A stretch of 26,094 bases of DNA, from IMG/VR virus record IMGVR_UViG_3300037502_000889, positions 1 through 26,094 of that record; one strand, written 5' to 3'. This document shows positions 2-20,125 of this stretch, in pieces. A model generated the notes under the pieces. That model was not told where the DNA came from. It worked only from the letters and a program-made list of their open reading frames with translations, and made no database searches. The position numbers and the translations under genes are program-made. Numbering within the stretch: position 1 is the first letter of the stretch; each line of letters opens with the position of its first letter. Origin of the DNA: a virus.

Positions 2-193
2 TGGGCTAAGCCGGGACAGCGGACGGAGTGGTACGACAGCGTTCGCCTCTTCCGTCAGAGTGGACATGGGGACTGGACGACAGTCTTTGGGGAATTGAAA
101 AAGGAGCTTCAGCATGCCTACGAAAACGGGCTTCTGGATTCGGGTCAAGAACGGTCAGGTCACGGACGTTTGGGACTACAAGCCGTCGGCTGA
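2..193 (+). CDS. Partial C-terminus, possible TPR-type glycosyltransferase
   Basis: Only the last 63 codons lie in the window; the frame is open from the left edge to a TGA at 191-193. The translated segment includes WYDSVRLFRQ (residues 10-19 of the fragment) and then GDW..V...L, which resembles the C-terminal signature (WYPxxRLFRQ, GDW..V) that I associate with TPR-containing, O-GlcNAc-transferase-like glycosyltransferases of bacteria and phages. Such an enzyme would fit the sugar cassette downstream. The frame overlaps the next gene, which has its own strong ribosome-binding site, by about 80 nt, so the last residues may be an unconstrained tail. The match rests on a short motif only; a chance open frame is the alternative. 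Confidence 0.4.
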   Translation, partial: WAKPGQRTEWYDSVRLFRQSGHGDWTTVFGELKKELQHAYENGLLDSGQERSGHGRLGLQAVG

Positions 194-539
194 CAAGCTG
201 GCGTCTGAGCCCGGCTGGCGTGAGGCTGTCGAGGTCATGCCTGATCTTGTGGCTAACCGCGAGATGGTAACCGCGCACCACTTCAACATCGACGTAGAAC
301 CTGCGCAGATCGTTTGGGGCAAGCGCGACATCGAGGTTGACGAGCGCAAGGATGGCTTGCGGGGGTCTGCCAAGGCCGAGTTCAAGGCTGTGGTTGATGC
401 AGAGGTTGCCAAGGAAACCGACCAGTATCCCGAGACGCAGTATGACGCTGCTGTCGTGGACGCGGCTCGCGTTGTCTTTGAGGCCCGCATGGACGAGATC
501 GCCGCTGCGACTACCCACGAGGCTGTTGACGCTCTGTAA
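114..539 (+). CDS. Small phage protein of unknown function
   Basis: The product is 141 aa, soluble and acidic, with no signal peptide or membrane segment. The start is set by an AAGGAG about seven bases before the ATG. The N-terminus (FWIRVKNGQVTDVWDYKP, residues 7-24) has the 'xVkNGxVtdVwdxxP' look of small proteins found beside tail-fibre genes, and the C-terminal half is a predicted Ala/Glu-rich helix. Its position just before the RCC1 tail-like protein suggests a tail-appendage accessory or chaperone role, but that is inference from position; I do not recognise the family. It overlaps the upstream partial frame by about 80 nt. Confidence 0.75.
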   Translation: MPTKTGFWIRVKNGQVTDVWDYKPSADKLASEPGWREAVEVMPDLVANREMVTAHHFNIDVEPAQIVWGKRDIEVDERKDGLRGSAKAEFKAVVDAEVAKETDQYPETQYDAAVVDAARVVFEARMDEIAAATTHEAVDAL

Positions 540-551
540 GGAGTATTTCCG

Positions 552-1763
552 ATGGGCGACCGCTTTCCCGGTGGCGTAATCAGCAAGACACCGCCCACGG
601 TCGTCGCACCCGTTGACGGCGAGGGCGGTTCCGCGTCTGGCGTCTGGACGCTGGCTGAGCAGCTTGGGTTGCAGAAGGCCGGGGTGTGGCCGCAGCCGAT
701 ATTGCCGAGGGAGCTCTATACTTGGGGCAACAACGGCAACGGCGAACTAGGCCAAAACAATACCATAAACTCTTCCAGCCCCGTCCAAGTGGGCGCTCTT
801 ACAAACTGGGCGCAGGTTGCGACGAACGACGGCCACACCGCCTGCGTCACAACGGCAGGAACTCTGTTTACTTGGGGCCGCGGCACCAACGGCCGACTCG
901 GCCACAACAACACCATCTACCGCTCCAGCCCTGTACAGGTTGGCGCACTTACCAACTGGGCGCAAGTTTCGGCAGGGCAAAGCTTCACCGCCTGTGTTAC
1001 TACCGCAAACACCTTGTTTACTTGGGGACGCAACGAGTTCGGCCAGCTTGGCGACGGCACGACCATTGATCGATCCAGCCCTGTTCAAGTCGGCGCGCTG
1101 ACTAATTGGGCGCAGGTTTCGGCTGGGCTTGAAAACACTGCTTGCGTTAAAACGGATGGCACACTTTGGACATGGGGTCGCGGTATATTTGGCCGACTCG
1201 GCCACAACAACTCAACCTACCTGTCCAGCCCTGTTCAAGTCGGCGCTCTGACAAACTGGGCGCAGGTTTCGGTGGGCGGTAACCACACCGCCTGCGTCAC
1301 GACAGCAGGCACCTTGTTTACTTGGGGCTTCAACGGCCAAGGCCGTCTTGGCCTCAACGACACCATCAACCGCTCCAGCCCTGTTCAAGTAGGTGCTTTA
1401 ACCAACTGGGCGCAGGCTGCAGCAGGCTACTTCACAGCCTGCGTCACTACCGCAGGCACCCTGTTTACTTGGGGACAAGGCAGTTTTGGGCGCCTCGGCC
1501 ACAACAACACAATCGACCTGTCCAGCCCAGTTCAAGTGGGCGCTCTTACCAACTGGTTGCAGGTTTCCGCAAGCAACCAAGAATTCACAGCTTGCGTCAC
1601 TACCGCAGGCACTTTATTTACTTGGGGTAGGGGCAGTGATGGACAACTCGGCCTTAACAGCGTTGCCAACTTCTCCAGCCCTGTCCAAGTAGGTGCCCTA
1701 ACTAGCTGGACACAGGTGTCTGCATTTAGCGCAGATCACACCGCTGCCATCACCAAAGGCTAA
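552..1763 (+). CDS. RCC1-repeat beta-propeller tail appendage protein
   Basis: The 403-aa product has an N-terminal segment of about 54 residues (PGGVISKTPPT ... GVWTLAEQ ... WPQP) of the type seen at the start of phage tail-fibre-like proteins. Seven consecutive repeats of about 50 residues follow. Each starts with LFTWG, has G.LG, then SSPVQVGALTNWAQV and TACVTTAGT. This is the RCC1 (alpha-tubulin suppressor-like) repeat, and seven copies match a closed seven-bladed propeller. A role as the exposed, receptor-binding or glycan-bearing part of the tail is inferred from the N-terminus and the position ahead of a sugar cassette. The start has an AAGGAG ribosome site. The repeats are also very similar at DNA level. 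Confidence 0.88.
   Translation: MGDRFPGGVISKTPPTVVAPVDGEGGSASGVWTLAEQLGLQKAGVWPQPILPRELYTWGNNGNGELGQNNTINSSSPVQVGALTNWAQVATNDGHTACVTTAGTLFTWGRGTNGRLGHNNTIYRSSPVQVGALTNWAQVSAGQSFTACVTTANTLFTWGRNEFGQLGDGTTIDRSSPVQVGALTNWAQVSAGLENTACVKTDGTLWTWGRGIFGRLGHNNSTYLSSPVQVGALTNWAQVSVGGNHTACVTTAGTLFTWGFNGQGRLGLNDTINRSSPVQVGALTNWAQAAAGYFTACVTTAGTLFTWGQGSFGRLGHNNTIDLSSPVQVGALTNWLQVSASNQEFTACVTTAGTLFTWGRGSDGQLGLNSVANFSSPVQVGALTSWTQVSAFSADHTAAITKG
714..1760 (+). repeat. Seven tandem ~150-bp coding repeats
   Basis: The propeller blades are encoded by seven tandem units of about 150 bp. The block coding for SSPVQVGALTNWAQV recurs almost unchanged (around 771, 921, 1071, 1221, 1371, 1518 and 1671). The short stretch after LFTWG, predicted to be a blade loop, varies most. 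Such spacing allows homologous recombination that gains, loses or swaps blades. Confidence 0.9.
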
Positions 1764-1766
1764 CCC

Positions 1767-2459
1767 GTGAAATCACTTAACTACGGCTACGACCAGACGG
1801 TCACTAAGGCCCACATCATCCGCATCCCGAGCCACGAGATGTCGATGCAGAAGGCGCAGCGCGCGGCGGAGAGCTGCGATCTGGCGGGGATGGACTGGGA
1901 ATACTGGGACGCCTACGACGGCATCCAGAACCCTATCCAGCCGCCAGCGCACCACGGCGGCGTCCCCGCCATGGTCAAGGTGACCGACCACTACATGACC
2001 CGAGGCGAGGTGGCCTGCGCCCTGAGCCACATCAGTCTCTGGCAGAAGTGCGTGTTGGAAGACCGCCCGCTCGTGATCCTCGAGCATGACGCCGTCATGG
2101 TGCAGCCCTACACGCAGCATGCCGTCTTCAACTCGATCTGTTATCTGGGCAGCAACGAGCAGGTGAACCAAGGCTGGGGTGTCATGCCGACGCCGCCGCA
2201 TGCCAGCGAGGGGCCCAACTACCACTTCATCTGCCGGGCCCACGCCTATGCCGTCGATCCTGCCGTGGCCAAGAACATGCTGGCCCATGTGCTGAAGTAC
2301 GGGATCAACGCCCCGCTTGATATTTTGCTGCGCGCCGACATTTTCCCCATTCACCAGATGGGCGTCTTCGCATATGACGTGAAGGACCAAGAGACGACGA
2401 TCTTGGGCCGCCCGAAAGAGGGCAGGAGCACCCTTCGCAACGATAGGCTGGACACGTGA
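1767..2459 (+). CDS. Glycosyltransferase family 25 (LPS-type)
   Basis: The 230-aa product matches the GT25/LPS-glycosyltransferase pattern: an N-terminal strand with IIRIP (17-21), a GEVACALSH motif (80-88) and the acidic motif LEHDAV (105-110) that takes the place of the DxD metal/nucleotide-sugar site. GT25 enzymes transfer a sugar from a nucleotide donor to lipooligosaccharide or to protein hydroxyl groups. The start is GTG, three bases after the previous stop. It opens a tightly overlapping cassette of nucleotide-sugar genes, so it is the likely user of the activated sugar made by the downstream enzymes. The acceptor (host LPS or virion protein) cannot be read from sequence. Confidence 0.85.
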   Translation: MKSLNYGYDQTVTKAHIIRIPSHEMSMQKAQRAAESCDLAGMDWEYWDAYDGIQNPIQPPAHHGGVPAMVKVTDHYMTRGEVACALSHISLWQKCVLEDRPLVILEHDAVMVQPYTQHAVFNSICYLGSNEQVNQGWGVMPTPPHASEGPNYHFICRAHAYAVDPAVAKNMLAHVLKYGINAPLDILLRADIFPIHQMGVFAYDVKDQETTILGRPKEGRSTLRNDRLDT

Positions 2460-3028
2460 ACTTTTCTGTCGTCTTCCATGACCACACCAAGGCGACCCTC
2501 TCACGCATCTTCAACGAAGTCCTGATCCCGAACACCGTCATTGAGATCGGCGTCTTTGAGGGCGAGACCACCTTCAACCTGACCAACCTGCTCCGAGGTT
2601 CGGGAGCCTACCGCCACTACGCCATCGACCCGTTCGCGGCGTCAGAGAACCTCACCGACACCACGGTGGCCTCGGCCCGCGAGGTCTTCACCAGCTTCCT
2701 GCCCGAGTTCCCCGAGGTTGAGCACATCGACAAGCCGTCGCTGGATGGGCTGATTGAGCTCAAACAGCGTGGCGTCGTGGCTGACCTGATCTACGTCGAT
2801 GGCTCACACTTCGCCAAGGACGTCCTCCTTGATGCGGCTCTTGGGTTCGAACTCCTGCGCGTGGGCGGCGTCATGGTCTTCGACGATGCGGTCAGCTGGC
2901 GATACGGCGAGAGCATCCACGACAGCCCGAAGCAGGCCGTTGATGCCTTCATCGCCTGCAACTGGAACCGCTTGAAGGTTCTGGAGACGCCCGGCGGCTA
3001 TCAAGTGGCGATCCAGCGCACATGCTAG
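2456..3028 (+). CDS. Class I SAM-dependent methyltransferase (Methyltransf_24-like)
   Basis: The 190-aa product has SAM-binding motif [13 protein letters not shown] (28-39), an acidic strand end AIDPF (56-60), and the motif DLIYVDGSH (110-118) followed by a hydrophobic segment ending VMVFDDA. That layout is typical of Methyltransf_24-type enzymes common in surface-polysaccharide clusters. It probably methylates a sugar or nucleotide sugar in this cassette; the substrate is inferred from context. The start is GTG, overlapping the stop of the preceding glycosyltransferase as GTGA, so translation is likely coupled. Its end overlaps the next gene by 7 nt. Confidence 0.85.
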
Positions 3029-3537
3029 TCTTCACCAACGGCTGCTTTGACATCCTGCACGTCGGCCACATCCGATACCTGCAGGCGTCGAAAGCACTCG
3101 GTACGAGGCTGGTCGTCGGCCTGAACTCTGACGCATCCGTCCGGCGGATCAAGGGGCAGGATCGTCCCATCAATTCCCAAGAGGATCGGGCCGAGGTTCT
3201 GCGGGCGCTGGCCTGCGTCGACGAGGTCGTGATCTTCGACGAGGATACCCCATACGAGCTGATCAAAAGCCTGCATCCTGACGTCATCACTAAAGGCGGT
3301 GACTATAGCGCAAATAATATTGTCGGAAGAGACTTGGCAAAGGTCGTCGTAATCCCTTACGTTGCCGACAAATCAACGACAGGGATTATTGAACATGCGC
3401 GTCGAAAAGGGTTGGGGACACGAGGAGATTTTTGCCTCGACGGAGACCTACTGTGGGAAACTTCTCTGCTTCGAGCCGGGGAGGAAGTTCTCGATGCACT
3501 TTCATCGGGACAAGGACGAAACGTGGTACGTCCTTGA
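3022..3537 (+). CDS. HldE C-terminal-type sugar nucleotidyltransferase
   Basis: The 171-aa product aligns by eye with the adenylyltransferase domain of HldE (RfaE2): [13 protein letters not shown] with the HxGH catalytic motif at 13-16, DRPIN...DRAEVLRAL (48-63), KGGDY (91-95) and STTGII (118-123). In the ADP-heptose pathway this domain attaches AMP to D-glycero-beta-D-manno-heptose 1-phosphate. The family usually ends soon after the STT..II motif, but here the frame continues for about 46 residues that lie over the start of the cupin gene in another frame. Specificity for heptose rather than another sugar-1-phosphate is inferred; the kinase partner is a separate gene two positions downstream instead of a fusion. 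Confidence 0.85.
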
Positions 3538-3742
3538 GGGCGTCTTCAAACTCACGACCATAGACACCAAGACCGCGACGCCGCACTCTCAGTATCTCCG
3601 CAAGGGCGATGTCTGGCGCAATACGCCCCTCCTGCCTCACCAACTGCAGTGCGTCACTGGCCCCGGCGTCATCATTGAAGTCTCAGGCCGTGACACCGTC
3701 GAGGACAACTTCCGCGTCCTGCCGGGAGACAGTCAGGCATGA
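3395..3742 (+). CDS. Cupin, mannose-6-phosphate isomerase-like
   Basis: The 115-aa product is a single cupin barrel. It begins [13 protein letters not shown], the KPWGxE-like opening of type-II phosphomannose isomerase cupins. It has metal-ligand candidates H35, H37 and E42 (motif [17 protein letters not shown]) and H82 in the second motif (PHQLQC). I chose the ATG at 3395 rather than an upstream one because the conserved opening starts exactly there. Its role is probably isomerisation or epimerisation of a phosphorylated or nucleotide sugar within the cassette. It overlaps the preceding nucleotidyltransferase frame by 143 nt and the following kinase by ATGA. Confidence 0.82.
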
Positions 3743-4455
3743 AAATCCTCGTGATCGGCGACGTCTGCGAGGACATTTACGTCTACGGGACGACGGAGCG
3801 GAAGAACCCCGAGGCGGCGGCCACCCTCCTGCGTCAGACCCACACGCGCCGATCACCCGGCATGGCGGCCAACGTGGCCGAGAACCTTCGCGCCTTCTGC
3901 GACGTCACCGTTCACTTCCCGTCTGAGCCTTACTCCAAGAAGACGCGCTTCTATGCCGAGGATGGGGTGACCCAGCTCATGCGCGTGGATCAGGACACTC
4001 AGAGCCAGCCCTACAAGGTCAACACGCCTGAGTTCTATTCAAAGTTCGACGCCATCGTTGTGTCGGACTACAACAAGGGCTTCATCACCCAAGACAACCT
4101 CTTGGCCCTCATCAACGCCTACCGTGGCCCGATCTTCGTTGACACCAAGAAGACGCACCTGAAGCCGCTCTCTGGCCCGATCTTCAAGATCAACAGCGTC
4201 GAGCATGACAAACTGAAAAGCGAGCCGGACGATCTGATCGTGACGTGCGGCGCTGGCGGCTGCTGGTACAGGGGCGAGAACTTCCCGGCACCCAAGGTTG
4301 ACGTGGTGGACGTCTGCGGCGCCGGAGACACCTTCCTCGCGGCGCTGGCCTACCACTACACCAAGTGGGGCGACATGCGCTCAGCCCTTGAGGCTGCCAA
4401 CCATTACGCCGCACAGGCATGCACGCAGCCGGGTGTCTATGCGATACGTAATTGA
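3739..4455 (+). CDS. PfkB-family sugar kinase, HldE N-terminal-like
   Basis: The 238-aa product resembles the kinase domain of HldE (RfaE1). It opens ILVIGDVCEDIYVYG (3-17) with ..NPEAA and PGMAANVAEN, the positions that read SPEAP and PGGAANVA in HldE. It has VVSDYNKG mid-protein and the PfkB signature VDVCGAGDTF, with catalytic Asp about 197. In HldE the domain phosphorylates D-glycero-D-manno-heptose 7-phosphate at O1. The protein is about 70 residues shorter than cellular HldE kinase domains, apparently by loss of internal segments rather than ends, so it is a compact form. The ATG overlaps the cupin stop (ATGA). Which sugar it uses is inferred. Confidence 0.85.
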   Translation: MKILVIGDVCEDIYVYGTTERKNPEAAATLLRQTHTRRSPGMAANVAENLRAFCDVTVHFPSEPYSKKTRFYAEDGVTQLMRVDQDTQSQPYKVNTPEFYSKFDAIVVSDYNKGFITQDNLLALINAYRGPIFVDTKKTHLKPLSGPIFKINSVEHDKLKSEPDDLIVTCGAGGCWYRGENFPAPKVDVVDVCGAGDTFLAALAYHYTKWGDMRSALEAANHYAAQACTQPGVYAIRN

Positions 4456-4720
4456 CATCGACGGGACGATTTGCACCCAGACGGCAAGCTCCTACCCGGA
4501 CGCTGAGCCCTACGCTGACCGGATTTCGAAGGTCAACGCGCTCTACGATCAGGGCTGCGAGATCGTCTACTGGACGGCCCGAGGCATGTCATCTGGCACC
4601 GACTGGTCGGAGCTGACGAAGAGGCAGCTGGATCAGTGGGGCTGCAAATACCATCACCTGTGGATGGGAAAGCCTTCGTACGATGTATGGGTGGATGATA
4701 AGGCACAATGGCTATTCTAG
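4439..4720 (+). CDS. Small HAD-superfamily phosphatase
   Basis: The 93-aa product carries HAD motif I DIDGT (6-10; nucleophile D6, acid/base D8), motif II Thr in WTAR (45-48), motif III Lys in GKPSYD (77-82) and motif IV VDD (85-87). All four catalytic motifs are present with no cap domain. It is much shorter than GmhB (about 190 aa) but could fill the same step, removing the 7-phosphate of the sugar bisphosphate made by the adjacent kinase. Small HAD proteins of this kind occur in capsule and phage sugar clusters. I set the start at the ATG that begins the MRYVIDIDGT motif; it overlaps the kinase end by 17 nt. Confidence 0.82.
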   Translation: MRYVIDIDGTICTQTASSYPDAEPYADRISKVNALYDQGCEIVYWTARGMSSGTDWSELTKRQLDQWGCKYHHLWMGKPSYDVWVDDKAQWLF

Positions 4721-5136
4721 GCTTCACCGCGTCGGCCTTCGACCTGATCCATGCTGGGCATATCTCAATGCTGGAGGAGGCTGCGTCGCTGTGCGACACG
4801 CTGATCTGCGGCCTGCACGTTGACCCGAGCACCGAGCGGGTTGAGAAGTCAAAGCCCGTGCAGCCCCTGTCTGAGCGCTATATCCAGCTCTCGGCCATCA
4901 AGTACGTTGGCAGGATCATCCCGTACCAGACCGAGGAGGAGCTGCTCCAGATCATCGCCTTGGTGCGGCCCAACATTCGGTTCTTGGGCGAGGAGTATCG
5001 CGACAAGGCCTTCACGGGCCGGGAACTCTGTGAGAGCCTTGGCGTCCACATCCACTACAACAGCCGGAGGCATGGCCTGTCTTCGACCCTGCAGCGCGCG
5101 AGGCTGGCACATGCCTATCCTGATCACCGGACATAG
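4708..5136 (+). CDS. Second cytidylyltransferase-like nucleotidyltransferase
   Basis: The 142-aa product has the opening GFTASAFDLIHAGH with the HxGH motif at 15-18, FLGEEYRDK (92-100) and a terminal RRHGLSST (120-127), the counterpart of the RTxGxSTT/SS motif of glycerol-3-phosphate cytidylyltransferase-type enzymes. It therefore activates a phosphorylated small polyol or sugar with CTP or ATP. It is clearly different from the HldE-type nucleotidyltransferase two genes upstream, so the cassette has two activating enzymes. It overlaps the HAD gene by 13 nt and the epimerase by 26 nt. Confidence 0.82.
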   Translation: MAILGFTASAFDLIHAGHISMLEEAASLCDTLICGLHVDPSTERVEKSKPVQPLSERYIQLSAIKYVGRIIPYQTEEELLQIIALVRPNIRFLGEEYRDKAFTGRELCESLGVHIHYNSRRHGLSSTLQRARLAHAYPDHRT

Positions 5137-5875
5137 GGGCTTCATCGGCCAGAACATGATGGACGCGCTGCCGGGCTCCGTGGGCCACGAGTGGGGCGAC
5201 GGCGAGCCTAACCTTGACGGCATCGACAGGGTTATCCACCTCGGCGCGATCAGCAGCACGGCTTGCCGGGATTGGGATGCGCTCTTGCAGCAGAACGTCA
5301 TCTCTTCCGTGCGCCTTATCACGGCCTGCGATGAGCGTGGCATCCCCATTCAAGTCGCCTCGTCGGCTGCCGTCTATGGACCCGACAACACCACCTTCGT
5401 TGAGACCGACAAGCCGCAGCCACTGAACCCTTATGCGCTGTCTAAGTTCATCGTGGAGAAATACGTCGAGCGTCATAACTGGTCGGTTCCTGTCCAGTTG
5501 TTCCGCTACTTCAACGTCTATGGACCGCACGAGGATCACAAGGATCAGCCATCGCCGCACAGTCTCTTCCGGCGGCAGGCGGCTGACGGTGTGATCAAGG
5601 TGTTTGAGGGTAGCGAGAATTTTCGGCGCGACTTCGTCCCAGTCGAAACCGTTATCGACATTCACAAGCGCTTCTTTGACCTACCCGTCTCGGGCGTGTA
5701 TAATGTCGGCACCGGAGAGACGGCCTCATTCATGGACGTGGCTCGGCGGGTTGCCTCTGAGACGGGGGCAGAAATCAAAGAGGTGCCTATGCCTGAGCAT
5801 CTGAAACGCAACTACCAATCCTACACACGGGCTGACATGGCGAAAACTCGCAGGGCTTTGGGGTCGGTGCAATGA
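5111..5875 (+). CDS. hldD: NAD-dependent epimerase, HldD-like
   Basis: The 254-aa product is an extended short-chain dehydrogenase: Rossmann motif TGHRGFIG (6-13), ASSAAVYG (83-90), catalytic Y108/K112 in NPYALSK, and RYFNVYGP (132-139) followed by EDHKDQPSP. The C-terminal half has RRDFVPVETV and VYNVGTGETASF. The run from RYFNVYGP through the HK residues to the RDFV and GTG motifs follows ADP-L-glycero-D-manno-heptose 6-epimerase (HldD/RfaD). The protein is shorter than cellular HldD (about 310 aa). The start is the ATG immediately before the Rossmann motif; an upstream in-frame extension to 4820 is a shadow of the previous gene. Another nucleotide-sugar epimerase or dehydratase remains possible. 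Confidence 0.85.
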   Translation: MPILITGHRGFIGQNMMDALPGSVGHEWGDGEPNLDGIDRVIHLGAISSTACRDWDALLQQNVISSVRLITACDERGIPIQVASSAAVYGPDNTTFVETDKPQPLNPYALSKFIVEKYVERHNWSVPVQLFRYFNVYGPHEDHKDQPSPHSLFRRQAADGVIKVFEGSENFRRDFVPVETVIDIHKRFFDLPVSGVYNVGTGETASFMDVARRVASETGAEIKEVPMPEHLKRNYQSYTRADMAKTRRALGSVQ

Positions 5876-6397: not shown

Positions 6398-6588
6398 TGG
6401 CACTTGAACACTGGGTTTGGCCTGTCTTTGCCATCGGCATTGGCCTGATCTTTTATTTTTCCGGGGACGGGTTTTACCGTTACCCGTGCCAAGACCCGGA
6501 AAATTGGTCTGCGTTGGAATGCCAGCCACCGATTTGCCTGCGCACTAAGAACTGCGCCGACGACCTAACTGGAGGGGTTGCACCTTGA
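6397..6588 (+). CDS. Small cysteine-rich single-pass membrane protein
   Basis: The 63-aa product has one N-terminal hydrophobic segment (residues 7-22, VWPVFAIGIGLIFYF) and then a hydrophilic C-terminal domain with four to five cysteines (YPCQDPENW, LECQPPIC, KNC). The cysteines suggest a disulfide-bonded domain on the periplasmic side. The ATG overlaps the previous stop by one base. Its place directly before a holin-like gene suggests an accessory lysis role, for example regulating the holin or bridging the periplasm; this is inferred from position only and the family is not recognised. Confidence 0.72.
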   Translation: MALEHWVWPVFAIGIGLIFYFSGDGFYRYPCQDPENWSALECQPPICLRTKNCADDLTGGVAP

Positions 6589-6857
6589 AAAAGAACGATC
6601 CTGATTTTCTGGAAGCCAAACTGCGCTACTTCATCGGTGTGTCTTTGACCCTGATCCTTGGCGGCAGCATCTTCATCATCCTCTACTCGCTGGTGTTCGT
6701 GACCCAGCCTCTGGGCGAAAGTTCTGAAAACGACCGGGCACTTTTTGCCATCCTAACCCCAATTGCCAGCTTTATCACTGGCGCCCTCGGCGGCGTCATG
6801 GCGGCTGGCAACAACCGCAAACGCGACGAAGAGTCGCCTGCACAGGAGTCTGACTAA
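6585..6857 (+). CDS. Holin-like membrane protein (two TM segments)
   Basis: The 90-aa product has a charged N-terminus, two hydrophobic segments (about 15-39 and 53-75, the second being FAILTPIASFITGALGGVMAAG) and a charged tail. This is the size and layout of class II holins, which form inner-membrane holes that release the endolysin. The start is TTG, overlapping the preceding stop as TTGA, with a GGAGGGG sequence upstream. The endolysin gene lies one gene downstream. Function is inferred from topology and neighbours. Confidence 0.72.
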   Translation: MKKNDPDFLEAKLRYFIGVSLTLILGGSIFIILYSLVFVTQPLGESSENDRALFAILTPIASFITGALGGVMAAGNNRKRDEESPAQESD

Positions 6858-7084
6858 TGATCGGCAAGATTATGAACATGTTCATGGGCCGCAAACTGAA
6901 AGAGAAAGCGGTTGACGCAGTGTTGGACAAGGTGAACCTGCCTGATCCAGTTGAGAACGCCATCAAGGCGGCGGCCACGGGCAACGTGGGCGATCTGCTC
7001 GGCGGCGTGGGCCAAGACGTGGCGAAAGAGGCCGTGATGGATGCGGTCGCCAAGAAGATGCGGGTTAGGAAGCCAAAGAAATGA
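6857..7084 (+). CDS. Small basic protein of unknown function
   Basis: The 75-aa product begins MIGKIMNMFMGRK and ends in a basic RVRKPKK tail. The middle is predicted amphipathic helix with a Gly-rich turn (GNVGDLLGGVGQDVAKE). It may associate with the membrane surface through the N-terminal helix, but no true membrane segment is present. It sits between the holin-like gene and the endolysin, overlapping both neighbours by one and four bases, so it is part of the lysis transcription unit. I do not recognise the family. Confidence 0.72.
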   Translation: MIGKIMNMFMGRKLKEKAVDAVLDKVNLPDPVENAIKAAATGNVGDLLGGVGQDVAKEAVMDAVAKKMRVRKPKK

Positions 7085-7935
7085 CCCTGCTGACCGTAGA
7101 TCAACTGCGTGCCATGATCCCGACCAACAAGGAGGTCGAGGCATGGTGCGAGGAACTCAACAAGGCGTTGCCCAAATACGACATCACGACGCCGCAAAGG
7201 ATTGCTGGCTTTACCAGCCAATGCGCCCATGAGAGCATGGACTTCAACGCGCTGTCCGAGAACCTGAACTACCGCCAAGAAACCCTACTCAAGGTGTTCC
7301 CGCGCTACTTCGGACCCGGAAAGCGCAACGCCGCCGAGTATGCCAAGAACCCTGAGAAGATTGCGAACTACGTCTACATGGACGAGTTCCGCACATCAAA
7401 GCTGGGCAACGTGCAGCCCGGCGATGGCTGGCGCTTCCGTGGCCGTGGGCTGAAGCAGTTGACCGGGCGTGACAACTACAGCCGCTTCGCCAAAGACTAC
7501 GACATGACAGCGGAGCAAGCCGCCGAGTGGCTGGAGACCAAGGAAGGCGCGCTGGCGTCGGCTCTGTGGTTCTGGAACACCAACAAGCTAAACGCCATCG
7601 CAGACACAGGCAACGTGGCTGCGCTGACCAAGAAGATCAACGGCGGCAACATTGGCCTCGCAGACCGTCAGGCGCGCTACGCTAGGTGCATGGCGGCTTT
7701 GGGTGGGAGGGTATCTGCCCCCGCTCCGAAAACCGCTCCTGCGGCCCCCGTTGTGACCCTGCGCAAGGGTGCTAAGGGTGACGCTGTCAAGCGCATGCAG
7801 GCCGCGCTGCGGATTAAGGCTGACGGTGACTTTGGCCCCGGCACGGAAGCTGCGTTGAAAAGGTGGCAGGCGGCCAACGGCTTGGTCGCTGACGGTGTGG
7901 CTGGCCCTAAAACGCTTTCCAAGCTTTTGGGATAA
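7081..7935 (+). CDS. Endolysin: GH19 glycosidase with peptidoglycan-binding domain
   Basis: The 284-aa product has an N-terminal GH19 (chitinase-like) lysozyme domain, about residues 1-205. It has AHESMDF (catalytic Glu about 51), SENLNY (Glu about 60), YAKNPEKIANYVY, and GDGWRFRGRGLKQLTGRDNY, which are the standard signatures of GH19 endolysins. An Ala/Pro linker (about 210-222) leads to a C-terminal PG_binding_1 repeat (about 225-284; LRKGAKGDAVKRMQ, DGDFGPGTEAALKRWQ, DGVAGPKT). It would cut the glycan strand of peptidoglycan at lysis. No signal peptide is seen, so export should depend on the upstream holin-like protein. The ATG overlaps the preceding stop as ATGA. Confidence 0.93.
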   Translation: MTLLTVDQLRAMIPTNKEVEAWCEELNKALPKYDITTPQRIAGFTSQCAHESMDFNALSENLNYRQETLLKVFPRYFGPGKRNAAEYAKNPEKIANYVYMDEFRTSKLGNVQPGDGWRFRGRGLKQLTGRDNYSRFAKDYDMTAEQAAEWLETKEGALASALWFWNTNKLNAIADTGNVAALTKKINGGNIGLADRQARYARCMAALGGRVSAPAPKTAPAAPVVTLRKGAKGDAVKRMQAALRIKADGDFGPGTEAALKRWQAANGLVADGVAGPKTLSKLLG

Positions 7936-8070: not shown

Positions 8071-8703
8071 ATGGCATACAGCATGACCTATGACAGCTTG
8101 TTAACGGACGTGCGCCGTTATCTTGAGCGTGGTTTCACCGCTGAGAGCGATCAGATCGTCTACGAGCAGCTGCCCCGTTTGATCACGCTGGGCGAGCGTC
8201 GGATTGCGCGTGAGCTGAAAATCCAAGGCTTCATCCGCGCGGTGCAGACCCCGCTGCAGGTGGGCGTCGCGGTTTACCTCAAGCCTGATCGGTGGCGCGA
8301 CACGATCAGCATGACCGTCAACGGCTCGCCGATCTTCGCCCGCTCGTATGAATACTGCCGCAGCTACTGGCCCAATGAGGCCCAAACCAGCGCGCCTCAG
8401 TTCTATGCTGACTACGACTACCAGCACTGGCTGATCACGCCGACCCCGGCCACCGCCCAGACGCTTGAGGTTCTCTACTATGAGCAGCCTCGCTTCTTGG
8501 GCGATGACTTTCAAACTAATTGGCTTACTGAATACGCTCCAGACCTTCTGCTTTATGCGGCGCTGCTTGAGGCGGCACCGTTCCTGAAGAAAGACGAGCG
8601 CATTCAGACTTGGCAAGGGATGTACGACCGTTCCGCTCAGGCTCTGAACGGAGAAGACCTGAAGCGCATCATGGATCGTTCGGCTAACAGGAGCGAAGCG
8701 TAA
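8071..8703 (+). CDS. Head-to-tail adaptor protein (SU10-adaptor type)
   Basis: The 210-aa product is mostly helical. It has YDSLLTDVRRYLERG (N-terminus), LPRLITLGERRIARELKIQGF, a beta hairpin region with WLITPTPATAQTLEVLYYEQP, and WLTEYAPDLLLYAALLEAAPFLKKDERIQTWQ. That order (helical start, ARELK-type helix, tyrosine-rich hairpin, 'yPdlllygaLleaapfl') is the pattern of the phage SU10-type adaptor family, functionally equivalent to T7 gp11. It would join the portal to the tail nozzle. I chose ATG 8071 because the conserved sequence starts there, after GGAGTCCGC. It is the first gene after the promoter at 7987-8016. Confidence 0.78.
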   Translation: MAYSMTYDSLLTDVRRYLERGFTAESDQIVYEQLPRLITLGERRIARELKIQGFIRAVQTPLQVGVAVYLKPDRWRDTISMTVNGSPIFARSYEYCRSYWPNEAQTSAPQFYADYDYQHWLITPTPATAQTLEVLYYEQPRFLGDDFQTNWLTEYAPDLLLYAALLEAAPFLKKDERIQTWQGMYDRSAQALNGEDLKRIMDRSANRSEA

Positions 8704-9902
8704 TGCCTATTTACACAGATGTGTTCGGCGGCGCGAACATTTACCCCAGCGAGATCAGCTACAGCTCCGTTGCCCTGACGACGGACATCACGCTCAGCTG
8801 GCCCGAGGAGACGTCAACCAACGTCAACCTTGCCACCCGCATCATGGACGTTACCCCGTCCACCACCGGGCTGAGCATCATCCTGCCCGACGCCAGCAAG
8901 ACCGGCACCGGCAATACCATCCTGTTCAACAACCGTGGCGCTAACACCTTTACGGTGCGGGACGCGACGGGCGTGCAGGTCGTCACGGTCGCGGCGGGCA
9001 CATTGTGGCAAATCTACCTGACCAACAACTCGACGGCGGCTGGCGTTTGGCGCTCTCTGCAGTATGGCGCCACGACATCTGTTGCCAACGCCTCGGCTCT
9101 CGCTGGCACGGGCATCGTCGCCGTCGGCGCGCTCCTGAGCCAGTCGGTCCCGGTCACCTCGTTCAACTCCAACTACACCACTACGCTGGCTGACCGCGCC
9201 AAGATGTTCAACTGGACGGGCGCGGGCGGCACGCTGACGCTGCCGGACCCGGTCACGGTCGGCAACAACTGGTTTGTCTACCTGCGCAACTCGGGCAGCG
9301 GGGCTATCTCTGCCGACGCTCCCGGCGTTTCGCTAATCAACGGAGCCTCGTTCCTGAGCTTCCAGCCGGGCGAGTCTGCCATTATCGCCTGCGACGGCGC
9401 CAACTTCTATACCATCGGCTTCGGCCAATCGGCGACGTTTGCCTTTGACTACACCGTGATTGATGTCGCCGGGACGGGCAACTACACGCTGGTCGGCACC
9501 GAACTCAACCGCGTGGCATATCGCTTCACGGGCCTGCTGACGGGCAACCGCAACATCATCGTGCCCGCCACGGTGCAGCAGTATTGGGTCGATAACCGGA
9601 CCACCGGCTCTTACACGCTGACCGTTAAGACGCCCGCTGGCCTCGGTGTGAGCGTCGCTCAGAACCAGCGTGCGATCCTTTATTCTGACGGCACCGACGT
9701 GCTGGACGCTGACACGGCAGGCGTCTCAATCCCTCTCGACGTCTCTCAGGGCGGCACGGGCGCGACCACCGCAGGCGCGGCAATTATCAATCTCGGCGGC
9801 ACGTCCGTCGGCATCGGCGTGTTCACTGCCGTGGATCAGGCTGCAGCTTGGGCCGCGCTCGGGCCTGCGCCTGTGGGCACCGTCAACGGCGGGAGCTTCT
9901 AA
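8703..9902 (+). CDS. Beta-rich virion structural protein, tail-fibre-like
   Basis: The 399-aa product is nearly all beta-strand by composition (Thr, Gly, Val, Asn). It appears to contain three tandem, similar domains of about 100 residues (roughly 45-125, 145-240 and 250-335), each with a LPD/IVP strand, a G(N)xxxVxNxG turn and a 'xxxDGxxW/F' ending. The C-terminus has LDVSQGGTGATTAGAA (about 344-360), a motif common near the ends of tail-fibre-type proteins. It is likely an outer virion or tail component. Position between adaptor and nozzle-like genes supports this. ATG overlaps the previous stop by one base. Confidence 0.75.
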   Translation: MPIYTDVFGGANIYPSEISYSSVALTTDITLSWPEETSTNVNLATRIMDVTPSTTGLSIILPDASKTGTGNTILFNNRGANTFTVRDATGVQVVTVAAGTLWQIYLTNNSTAAGVWRSLQYGATTSVANASALAGTGIVAVGALLSQSVPVTSFNSNYTTTLADRAKMFNWTGAGGTLTLPDPVTVGNNWFVYLRNSGSGAISADAPGVSLINGASFLSFQPGESAIIACDGANFYTIGFGQSATFAFDYTVIDVAGTGNYTLVGTELNRVAYRFTGLLTGNRNIIVPATVQQYWVDNRTTGSYTLTVKTPAGLGVSVAQNQRAILYSDGTDVLDADTAGVSIPLDVSQGGTGATTAGAAIINLGGTSVGIGVFTAVDQAAAWAALGPAPVGTVNGGSF

Positions 9903-11746
9903 TGGTCGACACGACGATCGTCCTCAAGTCTAGCCCCGGCATCAAGCGGGATGGGACAAAGTTTGAGGGCGACTTCTACGTGGACGGCCAGTGGGTGCGC
10001 TGGCAGCGCGGTCTGCCGCGTAAGATGGGTGGCTATAGGGCCACGCAGAAATACCTGACCGAGATCAGCCGGGGCTTCAGCACCTTCTCGCAGCAGAACT
10101 TTGTATACTGTCATTCTGGTGGCGCTACGACCCTAGAGCGGTTCACGCTGGACTCATCTCTGAACTCGTCAATCGTCACCGACCGGACACCTGCTGCGGT
10201 GGCTGGCACCTGCACGGTCACCCTAACCGGCGGCGCTGCTGGCTCGGTCGACACCATCAAAATCAATGGCGTTGACATCATGTCGGGTGCCGTTGCGTTC
10301 ACGACCGACCTCTCAACAACAGCCACAGCCGTGGCCTCAAACATCACGGCATTTGCCTCAACCCCGAACTATACGGCGGCAGCTGTCGGCGCTGTCATCA
10401 CGATCACAGCCTCGGCCACCGGATCTGCGTCCAATGGCGAGGTGGTCGTGACGGCCACGACGATCACGACGACCAACACCGACATGGTTAACGGCTCGGA
10501 TGCCCTCGCGGCCAGCCCCGAAAACATGTGGATGTTCGACTACCAGTACGATTCATCCACGAACCAGAACTACATCATGGCCCACGTTTCGCCGAACATG
10601 GCTTGCATCTGTAACGATGCAGGCGGCCAGATTTTCTTTGGCGAGGTTCTTGGCACCGGCGACCTGCTCAGCGTGAACCTGCCGCCTGACGCCAACGCCA
10701 CCGGCGGCATCGTCTCGCTGCACCCCTACATGTTCTACTACGGCACCGATGGCATCATCGGCTGGTCTGTTCCCGGCGAGCCGACCAACCTGACCGACTT
10801 TGGGAGCGGCGCTGGCTTGGCTCGCGTCTGGGGCCAGAAGATCATCAAGGGGCTGCCCCTGCGCGCTGGCTCCGGCACCGCCCCCGCAGGCATCTTTTGG
10901 GCCTTCGACGCGGTCATCCGCGCTACCTTCACGGGCGGCGCTACGGTGTTTCAGTTTGACGTGGTGGCGACCGACACCTCGATCCTCTCGCCGGGCTGCG
11001 TGATTGACTACGACGGCGTCTACTTCTGGGCTGGGGTTGATCGGTTCCTGATGTTCAACGGCGTCGTGCGCGAAGTCCCGAACTCCATGAACCTAAACTA
11101 CTTCTTCGACGGCCTGAACCGTCGGTACGCGACGAAGGTGTTTGCCTTCAAGGTGCCGCGCTATGGCGAAATCTGGTGGTGCTACCCGAAAGGCGACGCC
11201 ACCGAATGCACTCACGCCGTCGTATATAACGTCCGCGAGAACACTTGGTACGACACCCAGCTGCCGAACCTCGGACGCTCCGCTGGCCAGTTCAACAACT
11301 CGTTCGCCGCGCCGATCCTGACCGGCGTCCAAGGTGACCCCACCGACTATCGCGTCTGGGTGCATGAGCAAGGTGTTGACGAGATTGATGGCTCAATCAT
11401 CAACCCGATCCGATCCTATTTTGAGACGGCTGACTTGTCGTCGCTGCCGCAAGGTAGGAACGAATATCTGCGCATCACGCGGATTGAACCGGACTTTGTG
11501 CAGAATGGCCCGATGACCGTGCAGGTTACGGGTCGAGCCAACGCCCGCGCGCCTGAAGTCGTCAGCAGTATCTTTACCTTTGTGGACCCCAAAGACGTGG
11601 TCGAGCCGCAACAGCAGATCGTCATGCTCAAGGAGCAGCGTCGCGAGCTCCGCGTGCGCTTTGAGAGCAATGCCGTGTACGGGGACTACCAGATGGGACA
11701 GATCATCGGGCACGTCTCGCCCGGAGACGGGACGGTGCTGGGATGA
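9902..11746 (+). CDS. Tail nozzle-like structural protein
   Basis: The 614-aa product begins with a stretch (KSSPGIKRDGTKFEGDFYVDGQ..., then WVRWQRGLPRKMGGY at 31-45) that is typical of large podovirus tail proteins encoded after the adaptor. The body has repeated aromatic beta segments such as FYYGTDGIIGWSVPGEP and VYFWAGVDRFLMFNG, which suggests a propeller-like nozzle comparable in place to T7 gp12. A Thr/Ala-rich Ig-like segment (about 96-198) looks inserted. The nozzle assignment is inferred from gene order and fold pattern. The ATG at 9902 overlaps the previous stop by one base; longer in-frame starts overlap the upstream gene and are unlikely. Confidence 0.75.
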   Translation: MVDTTIVLKSSPGIKRDGTKFEGDFYVDGQWVRWQRGLPRKMGGYRATQKYLTEISRGFSTFSQQNFVYCHSGGATTLERFTLDSSLNSSIVTDRTPAAVAGTCTVTLTGGAAGSVDTIKINGVDIMSGAVAFTTDLSTTATAVASNITAFASTPNYTAAAVGAVITITASATGSASNGEVVVTATTITTTNTDMVNGSDALAASPENMWMFDYQYDSSTNQNYIMAHVSPNMACICNDAGGQIFFGEVLGTGDLLSVNLPPDANATGGIVSLHPYMFYYGTDGIIGWSVPGEPTNLTDFGSGAGLARVWGQKIIKGLPLRAGSGTAPAGIFWAFDAVIRATFTGGATVFQFDVVATDTSILSPGCVIDYDGVYFWAGVDRFLMFNGVVREVPNSMNLNYFFDGLNRRYATKVFAFKVPRYGEIWWCYPKGDATECTHAVVYNVRENTWYDTQLPNLGRSAGQFNNSFAAPILTGVQGDPTDYRVWVHEQGVDEIDGSIINPIRSYFETADLSSLPQGRNEYLRITRIEPDFVQNGPMTVQVTGRANARAPEVVSSIFTFVDPKDVVEPQQQIVMLKEQRRELRVRFESNAVYGDYQMGQIIGHVSPGDGTVLG

Positions 11747-19600: not shown

Positions 19601-20125
19601 TTAAACTCCATGCCTTTTGCTGTATCCAAGCGCAATCTGTGCTTTTGCTCTAGCAGCTTTGGCTTCAGAAATATCAGAAAACGATCCAAGGTGTTTGTTT
19701 TTCCCATTAATCTTTACACTGGCAGTCCAGTTTTGATTAGCTTTGCACCAATAAACACCGCAAACTCCACTTTTATTGTTTGACATTAATCCTCTGTTCT
19801 TCGCGTTTTCTGTATTTGACACCTCCCGCAAGTTAAAGATACGGTTGTCGGCTCTGTCTCCGTTGATATGGTCCAATTGCTCTTGTGGCCATTCGCCATA
19901 ATAAATTGCCCATACCATACGATGCGCGTAAATTTTCTTTCCAGCCAAACGACCGTGCAAATATCCATGTCCTGTTTTAGGAGTAAACGCCTCTTTTCCA
20001 GCAAACCTAGACCTCCAATGTTTTGGCATATCTTCACAATCTCGCCAAAACAGTTTGCCCGTCTCCGGCTCATAGCGAAGACGCTTGTGCAAATATTCGA
20101 TGGACGGTAGATTTTTGTCAGTCAT
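19601..20125 (-). CDS. HNH homing endonuclease with AP2-like DNA-binding domain
   Basis: The 174-aa product has an N-terminal segment (YLHKRLRYEPETGKLFW) typical of phage HNH proteins. The HNH core contains AHRMVW (H68), QLDHINGDRADNR (D85, H86, N94) and NLREVSNTENAKN. A C-terminal AP2/ERF-like DNA-binding domain (about 115-165) has SGVCGVYWCKANQNWTASVKINGK..HLGSF. Such proteins are usually free-standing homing endonucleases that cut a target site to spread their own gene. The gene is clearly more AT-rich than its neighbours and lies between convergent gene blocks, consistent with recent acquisition. GGAGGG precedes the ATG by six bases. Confidence 0.93.
   Translation of the reverse strand: MTDKNLPSIEYLHKRLRYEPETGKLFWRDCEDMPKHWRSRFAGKEAFTPKTGHGYLHGRLAGKKIYAHRMVWAIYYGEWPQEQLDHINGDRADNRIFNLREVSNTENAKNRGLMSNNKSGVCGVYWCKANQNWTASVKINGKNKHLGSFSDISEAKAARAKAQIALGYSKRHGV

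Follow-up and report, generated by a model that had tools for sequence, protein, structure and literature searches.

Arrays of phage genes for seven-bladed RCC1 propellers are tightly linked to a gene for a sulfotransferase-TPR-GT9 enzyme, and this link is new: within a searched literature that largely excludes subscription papers, no paper was found that pairs RCC1 with a sulfotransferase or treats phage RCC1 proteins as swappable adhesins. The RCC1 protein of the window (the whole 26,094-nucleotide stretch analysed, positions 1 to 26,094 of IMG/VR virus record IMGVR_UViG_3300037502_000889) is probably an exchangeable tail adhesin, with N-terminal docking, host contact through a loop face, swapping of propellers and modification by the linked enzyme. 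If so, phage RCC1 proteins would be a large class of modular tail adhesins rather than DNA-condensing proteins, each built on an unchanging frame of seven blades with a loop face that can be swapped, and frequently present three times in a genome; prediction of host range from metagenomes would be helped, and the enzyme would be a phage-encoded adhesin-modifying system.

The RCC1 gene (552-1763, plus strand) encodes 403 amino acids, with an N-terminal segment of about 50 residues followed by seven blades. The count of exactly seven given in the preliminary description is borne out by PF00415 (E 2.2e-80), which matches seven RCC1 stretches in the record. Blades 1 to 7 are delimited by the Pfam RCC1 matches and by blade comparison:

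552 to 701, plus strand: anchor-like N-terminal segment, codons 1-50, common to other phage proteins
714 to 863, plus strand: RCC1 blade 1
864 to 1013, plus strand: RCC1 blade 2
1014 to 1163, plus strand: RCC1 blade 3
1164 to 1313, plus strand: RCC1 blade 4
1314 to 1460, plus strand: RCC1 blade 5
1461 to 1613, plus strand: RCC1 blade 6
1614 to 1760, plus strand: RCC1 blade 7, followed by the stop codon at 1761-1763

The blade starts are spaced 150, 150, 150, 150, 147 and 153 nt. The blades are not the near-identical DNA repeats that they had been taken for: nucleotide identity between pairs is 56-78% (mean 68%), dS runs from 0.58 to saturation with dN below dS, and the blades share exact DNA repeats of at most 23 nt. 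The identity and dS values rule out recent amplification as a source of near-identical repeats in this gene; near-identical blade stretches, of up to 95 nt, are present in some relatives. The richness in Asn, Ser and Thr that had been remarked on is real, at 28% of the RCC1 protein versus 13-18% in eight other window proteins, but is not unique to it, since the tail-fibre-like protein at 8703-9902 also reaches 28%. Ten N-glycosylation sequons occur in the RCC1 protein. In an AlphaFold2 model built on an alignment of ten relatives (pLDDT 85.5, pTM 0.83), the protein is predicted with good confidence to be a closed seven-bladed RCC1 propeller, and the N-terminus, except around a helix at residues 34-42, is modelled with low confidence. 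The model resembles HERC2 RLD2 (Z 51.9 over 350 residues), UVR8 (Z about 48), eukaryotic RCC1 (Z 46.6) and BLIP-II (Z 31); unlike the window protein, the eukaryotic RCC1-like domains and BLIP-II have no phage role, and their sequence identity to it in the alignments is 19-34%.

The presence of RCC1 in a phage, presented earlier as unusual, is common: a profile search confirmed RCC1 in at least 592 IMG/VR stretches, from which 80 loci were kept, and PHROG families for phage RCC1 exist, categorized under DNA metabolism, with the window protein matching phrog_4219 (E 1.1e-34). Among 50,697 phage records, tblastn found RCC1 relatives in 25, the best being S-SRM01 (45%). Blades were counted in 173 complete RCC1 ORFs (154 distinct) from 92 RCC1 loci, a sample found with seven-bladed queries and counted with an HMM that also favours seven-bladed relatives; 165 of the 173, or 146 of the 154 distinct, have seven blades. 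The counts of the eight other distinct ORFs are 14, 14, 46, 3, 11, 6, 6 and 4, but the two 14-blade ORFs are 2 x 7, the ORF called as 46 has 42 blades by Pfam, and those with 3 and 11 are one broken 14-blade gene. Instead of the blade-number variants that had been anticipated, the number is fixed at seven or its multiples, and so seems to be set by ring closure rather than by drift. Constancy of both blade number and loops across relatives had been named as evidence against a variable binding surface; the blade number is constant and the loops are not. The broken 14-blade gene (L003:5588-7554) lies in a 124-kb contig, where a break in the reading frame separates 3 blades from 11. A single ORF of 2118 amino acids (L001:2562-8918) contains about 42 RCC1 blades (6 x 7); upstream of it is a tail assembly chaperone gene, and downstream are genes resembling GT9 and sulfotransferase.

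Entropy per blade position, calculated across the 146 distinct proteins with seven blades (1,022 blades), is highest after WG (3.3-3.7 bits at positions 6, 8 and 9). The stretch after LFTWG, already singled out as variable, thus differs between window blades and is also among the most variable positions of the larger set. A second peak, missed in the preliminary description, follows the last strand (2.9-3.7 bits at positions 39-41), and the loop between strands D and A is as variable as the B-C loop. Entropy is low in the A-B turn (KTDG, below 1 bit) and in the C-D turn (GALT; 0.19, 1.50, 0.69 and 0.67), and two strand positions, 34 and 43, are variable too (3.0 each). Because the B-C and D-A loops of a four-stranded meander share one face, hypervariability is predicted to be mostly confined to that face, as follows from the topology and the strand order of the model rather than from measured coordinates. 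Blades at the same position across phages are 0.525 alike versus 0.509 for different positions; blade position across phages is nearly uninformative.

The propeller changes while its surroundings stay the same. The window compared with L014 and L015 has 94% and 93% amino acid identity in the upstream gene, 94% and 94% in the anchor, and 95% and 95% in the downstream GT25 gene (dS 0.3), versus 54% and 65% in the propeller (dS 2.7 and 1.5). Two natural pairs, both from metagenome assemblies, in which repeats can be mis-joined, each show a propeller replaced in its entirety. L021 and L027 are for the most part 99-100% identical along a 6-kb stretch that includes RCC1 genes 1 and 2 (96-97% in the lowest 100-nt bins), fall to 46-63% of nucleotides in RCC1 gene 3, the slot occupied by the window's gene, from anchor codon 14 onward, and regain identity inside the GT25 gene; L178 and L180 share only 72.5% of amino acids in RCC1 gene 2 and about 100% in gene 3 and the glycosyltransferase. 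Slot comparisons over 115 contigs (91 after repeated contigs were collapsed) gave less than 75% amino acid identity in 22 of 23 cases where the glycosyltransferase was 95-98.5% identical; where it was at least 98.5% identical, three of six were at least 95%, one was in between and two were below 75%. Exact shared DNA between RCC1 copies within one phage extends to 89 nt (median longest match 20.5 nt, 22 pairs), the three longest matches all coming from L019, versus a median below the 20-nt floor and a maximum of 35 nt between copies of different phages (276 pairs). Such exact sharing supports blade exchange in relatives, which is old or absent in the window's copy. A swapped, hypervariable binding part set against conserved flanks is thus found here, as in tail adhesins. 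Retroelement-driven diversity finds no support: no reverse transcriptase (RVT_1) was seen in the window or in 15 related records, which may be fragments, and saturated synonymous change also argues against it. At the DNA level, the first 8 kb of the window yielded only short matches to the 50,697 phage records, all at 6448-7913 around the endolysin.

The N-terminal segment is shared more widely than the propeller. With residues 1-54 as the query, 33 IMG/VR loci were found with seven types of C-terminal domain behind it: RCC1 (10), Gly-rich (4), Lcl_C (2), SBBP-like (4), two unnamed repeat types (5 and 6) and LamG (2), as judged by scanning ten proteins and grouping the others by eye. Phage DSL-LC04 has a LamG protein with the same N-terminus, which belongs to no named family. 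This conserved N-terminus with exchangeable C-terminal domains is likewise a property of tail adhesins. The two unnamed repeat families (GIFALG... and IDYVTIAST...), which follow the shared N-terminus in most of L031-L036 and L041-L046, are possibly further propellers. In the RCC1 gene at L027:6001-7227, the anchor motif SGVWSL...GFWP lies inside blade 1, as if it were a movable segment. The tail-fibre-like protein at 8703-9902 of the window has weak PHROG tail fibre matches, and it has relatives close to several of the loci with the shared N-terminus.

Complete relatives carry three RCC1 genes per array, all within a single operon. There are 21 blades per record in L014, L015, L016, L017, L019 and L021, 14 in L022, and 20 by Pfam or 21 by the HMM made for this analysis in L027. 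The order in L015 is a small gene of tail fibre type, a small gene, RCC1 genes 1 and 2, the sulfotransferase-TPR-GT9 gene, a small gene, RCC1 gene 3, GT25, heptose-type genes and a holin; its tail-fibre PHROGs fall on a small gene shortly before RCC1 gene 1. The window begins within the corresponding enzyme gene, the end of which (2-193) was missed in the preliminary description, so RCC1 genes 1 and 2, if present as in the relatives, are off the left edge. The features around the window's RCC1 gene are:

2 to 193, plus strand: C-terminal end of the sulfotransferase-TPR-GT9 gene, 63 amino acids, 83% identical to the C-terminus of L015:3816-5639
114 to 539, plus strand: small upstream gene, 141 amino acids, 92-94% identical (amino acids) in L014-L016, with no Pfam or PHROG match
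1767 to 2459, plus strand: GT25-type glycosyltransferase (PF01755, E 8e-14), 95% amino acid identity in L014 and L015
2456 to 3028, plus strand: methyltransferase, Methyltransf_24 (PF13578, E 9e-15)
3022 to 3537, plus strand: heptose-1-phosphate adenylyltransferase-like, HldE domain II (TIGR02199, E 1.5e-53, 180.5 bits against a cut-off of 181.5)
3362 to 3742, plus strand: cupin (PF07883, E 2.2e-8)
3739 to 4455, plus strand: PfkB kinase resembling heptose-7-phosphate kinase, HldE domain I (TIGR02198, E 6e-30, below cut-off)
4298 to 4720, plus strand: HAD-type phosphatase ORF (phrog_1238, E 5.6e-30), true start probably further in
4708 to 5136, plus strand: second HldE-II-like nucleotidyltransferase (TIGR02199, E 4.4e-21, below cut-off)
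5111 to 5875, plus strand: NAD-dependent epimerase resembling ADP-heptose 6-epimerase (TIGR02197, E 5.7e-58, below cut-off), start placed from the L015 homologue at 10008-10769

The 141-amino-acid gene occupies the place taken in other RCC1 phages by a tail assembly chaperone gene; such a gene precedes RCC1 in L001 and in Synechococcus phage BUCT-ZZ01, with PF16778 matching in L001 and falling below cut-off in BUCT-ZZ01. Sugar genes do lie directly after the RCC1 gene, as had been pointed out: GT25 starts at 1767 and the ADP-heptose-type genes follow. Since the HldE-II-like, kinase and epimerase matches are all below curated cut-offs, the sugar may not be heptose itself. The cassette (3022-5875) has two different HldE-II-like nucleotidyltransferases. 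The ADP-heptose-type genes were rejected as part of the core of the system, for their homologues are present in only 19 of 148 distinct loci, and in 8 of the 44 where the sequence continues for at least 4 kb past the last RCC1 gene.

The sulfotransferase-TPR-GT9 gene is the usual companion of the RCC1 genes. Its GT9 part lies within 1.5 kb downstream of RCC1 in 46 of 55 distinct loci that have at least 2 kb after the RCC1 gene, the sulfotransferase does so in 44 of the same 55, and 60 ORFs carry both. As a control, loci in which the same N-terminus precedes another domain were reduced from 23 to 14 distinct and 11 with at least 2 kb downstream; GT9 or sulfotransferase is present in 0 of these 11 (Fisher p 1.6e-7, relatedness ignored). 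Reciprocally, among 56 distinct enzyme loci there are 44 flanked by 2 kb on either side, and RCC1 is within 2 kb in 42 of them. Bacterial and archaeal genomes gave 13 enzyme matches, with RCC1 close by in each of the top six (L210-L215) and absent from the locus in the seven remote ones. Among phage records, the GT9 part was found in BUCT-ZZ01, AG-345-E08 and S-SRM01, the three that also rank highest for RCC1, and one further match is weak, covering 14%. The sulfotransferase by itself is not strictly linked to RCC1 in cultured phages: S-SKS1, S-SCSM1 and two single-cell marine viruses match it without being among the records listed for RCC1.

The enzyme model (pLDDT 78, pTM 0.57) points to two catalytic domains. 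Residues 2-259 resemble tyrosylprotein sulfotransferase (TPST; Z 17). PRSGST and Rx7S, taken here to be the PAPS-binding motifs, are both present in eight of nine enzyme sequences that hold the sulfotransferase domain; the exception, L084, as read begins after the first motif. Sugar-acting sulfotransferases score Z 14-15, so the substrate may be a protein or a sugar. Residues 328-594 resemble the heptosyltransferases WaaC (Z 16.2), WaaF (16.0) and TibC (15.2 over 245 aligned residues), with Z 15.0-16.2 across these three enzymes; the model has the GT9 catalytic fold, and the sequence match to PF01075 is weak. TibC heptosylates serines in a repeat adhesin (PMC4358343, available parts). The linked enzyme differs from TibC in having TPR-type helices and a sulfotransferase instead of an N-terminal beta-barrel, and in lacking the four-cysteine iron finger, with no CxxC in nine of ten aligned enzyme sequences and one isolated CxxC in L001. 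In L014, L015 and L016 the glycosyltransferase part of the enzyme is 96-97% identical in nucleotides, while all three propellers are 55-63% identical in amino acids.

An exchangeable tail adhesin would explain the shared N-terminus, the swapping, the one-sided variation and the tail neighbours. The N-terminus of about 50 residues would dock the protein to the virion, the conserved strands and tight turns of the propeller would form the scaffold, and the 14 variable loops (seven B-C and seven D-A) on one face would contact the host surface. Diversification would proceed by replacement of the whole propeller through recombination in the conserved flanks, as in the two natural pairs, and also through blades being exchanged or duplicated inside one copy or among the three. 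The suggestion that the protein is a receptor binder on the tail is supported by the domain swaps, propeller replacement, one-face variability and, elsewhere, tail neighbours and a T7-type tail fibre fusion. Against an adhesin are the low confidence of the docking N-terminus in the model and the absence of a match between the upstream 141-amino-acid gene and any known chaperone; and because the window has another tail-fibre-like protein (8703-9902), the main receptor binder may be something other than RCC1. The near-exclusive link to RCC1, and the constancy of the enzyme while the propellers change, make modification of the propeller the most economical account. The enzyme encoded between RCC1 genes 2 and 3 would then probably decorate the propellers on their invariant frame, the window's ADP-heptose-type cassette may supply the sugar, and a role of the propeller as glycan carrier, as proposed earlier, becomes plausible given the RCC1-specific GT9/sulfotransferase gene. 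The fuller version of this reading, that in a widespread phage system the TPST-like sulfotransferase-TPR-GT9 enzyme both glycosylates and sulfates the invariant frame, leaving the loop face free for swapping and drawing on ADP-heptose-type genes where, as in the window, they are present, is put forward tentatively, at somewhat less than even chances; the site may perhaps be one per blade, such as the near-invariant Ser-Ser-Pro. Ser-Ser-Pro is not supported as a marker for presence of the enzyme, because S-SRM01, with GT9 and sulfotransferase, has mostly x-Thr-Pro.

The enzyme could instead act on host surface glycans, for receptor masking or exclusion of rivals, with the propeller merely binding that glycan. 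Most GT9 enzymes with an established function take part in LPS synthesis, the best fold matches include WaaC and WaaF, and the window genes resemble those of ADP-heptose synthesis. Modification of O-antigen by phages is also known (PMC11990801, available parts). Action on host glycans is nevertheless less likely than action on the propeller, because the glycosyltransferase part does not track binding specificity, being nearly constant where the propellers diverge, because the enzyme is missing from all 11 control loci with the same N-terminus, and because the TPR helices and the TPST-like domain hint at protein substrates. An adhesin is also favoured over a head or tail decoration that binds environmental particles or glycans instead of the infection receptor. 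The three copies per genome besides another tail-fibre-like gene would suit such a decoration, as would E. coli phage W70, in the virions of which three RCC1 proteins (W70_237-239, phrog_4219), from three consecutive genes, were detected by mass spectrometry with 141-233 spectra each (PMC11370258, available parts). This is improbable, since recombinational replacement and face-specific diversity fit a change of host range better, and the genes are positioned among tail-type genes.

It is very unlikely that the proteins are inhibitors of host proteins outside the virion, in the manner of BLIP-II, an inhibitor of the same fold that binds a protein through its propeller loops, for the genes are in a tail module and the N-terminus is common to lectin-type domains. 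RCC1 proteins are moreover found in virions of other phages, namely those of W70 and gp1 of GAP32, the latter also by mass spectrometry (PMC5259590; available parts of both papers). Least credible of all is that they order or condense DNA inside the capsid, as suggested for jumbo coliphages by analogy with eukaryotic RCC1 (PMC7247149, repeated in PMC11370258; available parts) and as their presence in virions would allow, given the one-sided hypervariable loops, cassette swapping, tail chaperone neighbours, joining to the N-terminus of a tail fibre and the exchange of domains with lectin-like folds.

The available parts of the W70 and GAP32 papers, which suggest a DNA role, do not describe the sulfotransferase-GT9 link, the shared N-terminus or swapping. 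In Pseudomonas phages PollyC and Ppr_SeaP2, the gene that takes the place of the tail fibre carries RCC1 repeats after an N-terminus of the T7 tail fibre type (23 bits, just below the cut-off of 25.2). These phages differ from the window in having another anchor, one gene and diverged blades (25-28% identity), and no sulfotransferase-GT9-type enzyme is among the annotated neighbours viewed. BUCT-ZZ01, whose host is a laboratory cyanobacterium, has 14 RCC1 blades side by side with a GT9-type gene (E 4.6e-90). S-SRM01, also a Synechococcus phage, has RCC1 genes of 7, 7 and 6 blades, a GT9-type gene (E 5.5e-48) and a sulfotransferase (2.8e-49) encoded by a separate gene, unlike the fused enzyme; the window's N-terminus was not found in either phage. 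The receptor-binding protein of phage phi11 contains a beta-propeller (PMC4901313, available parts), which, unlike the window's, has five blades and belongs to a different family. Highly repetitive RCC1/BLIP-II propellers, a few of them viral, are treated in the available parts of PMC9218822. Judged by their available parts, five other papers were set aside: 'RCC1' is a strain number or gene tag in PMC12906663 and PMC10218006, and PMC12923769, PMC8557907 and PMC12648861 do not bear on the present question; nor does the nozzle propeller of PMC9509320, likewise seen in part. Elsewhere in the window, an ORF on the minus strand (19601-20125) resembles an HNH homing endonuclease by eye and lies beside the end of the structural genes.
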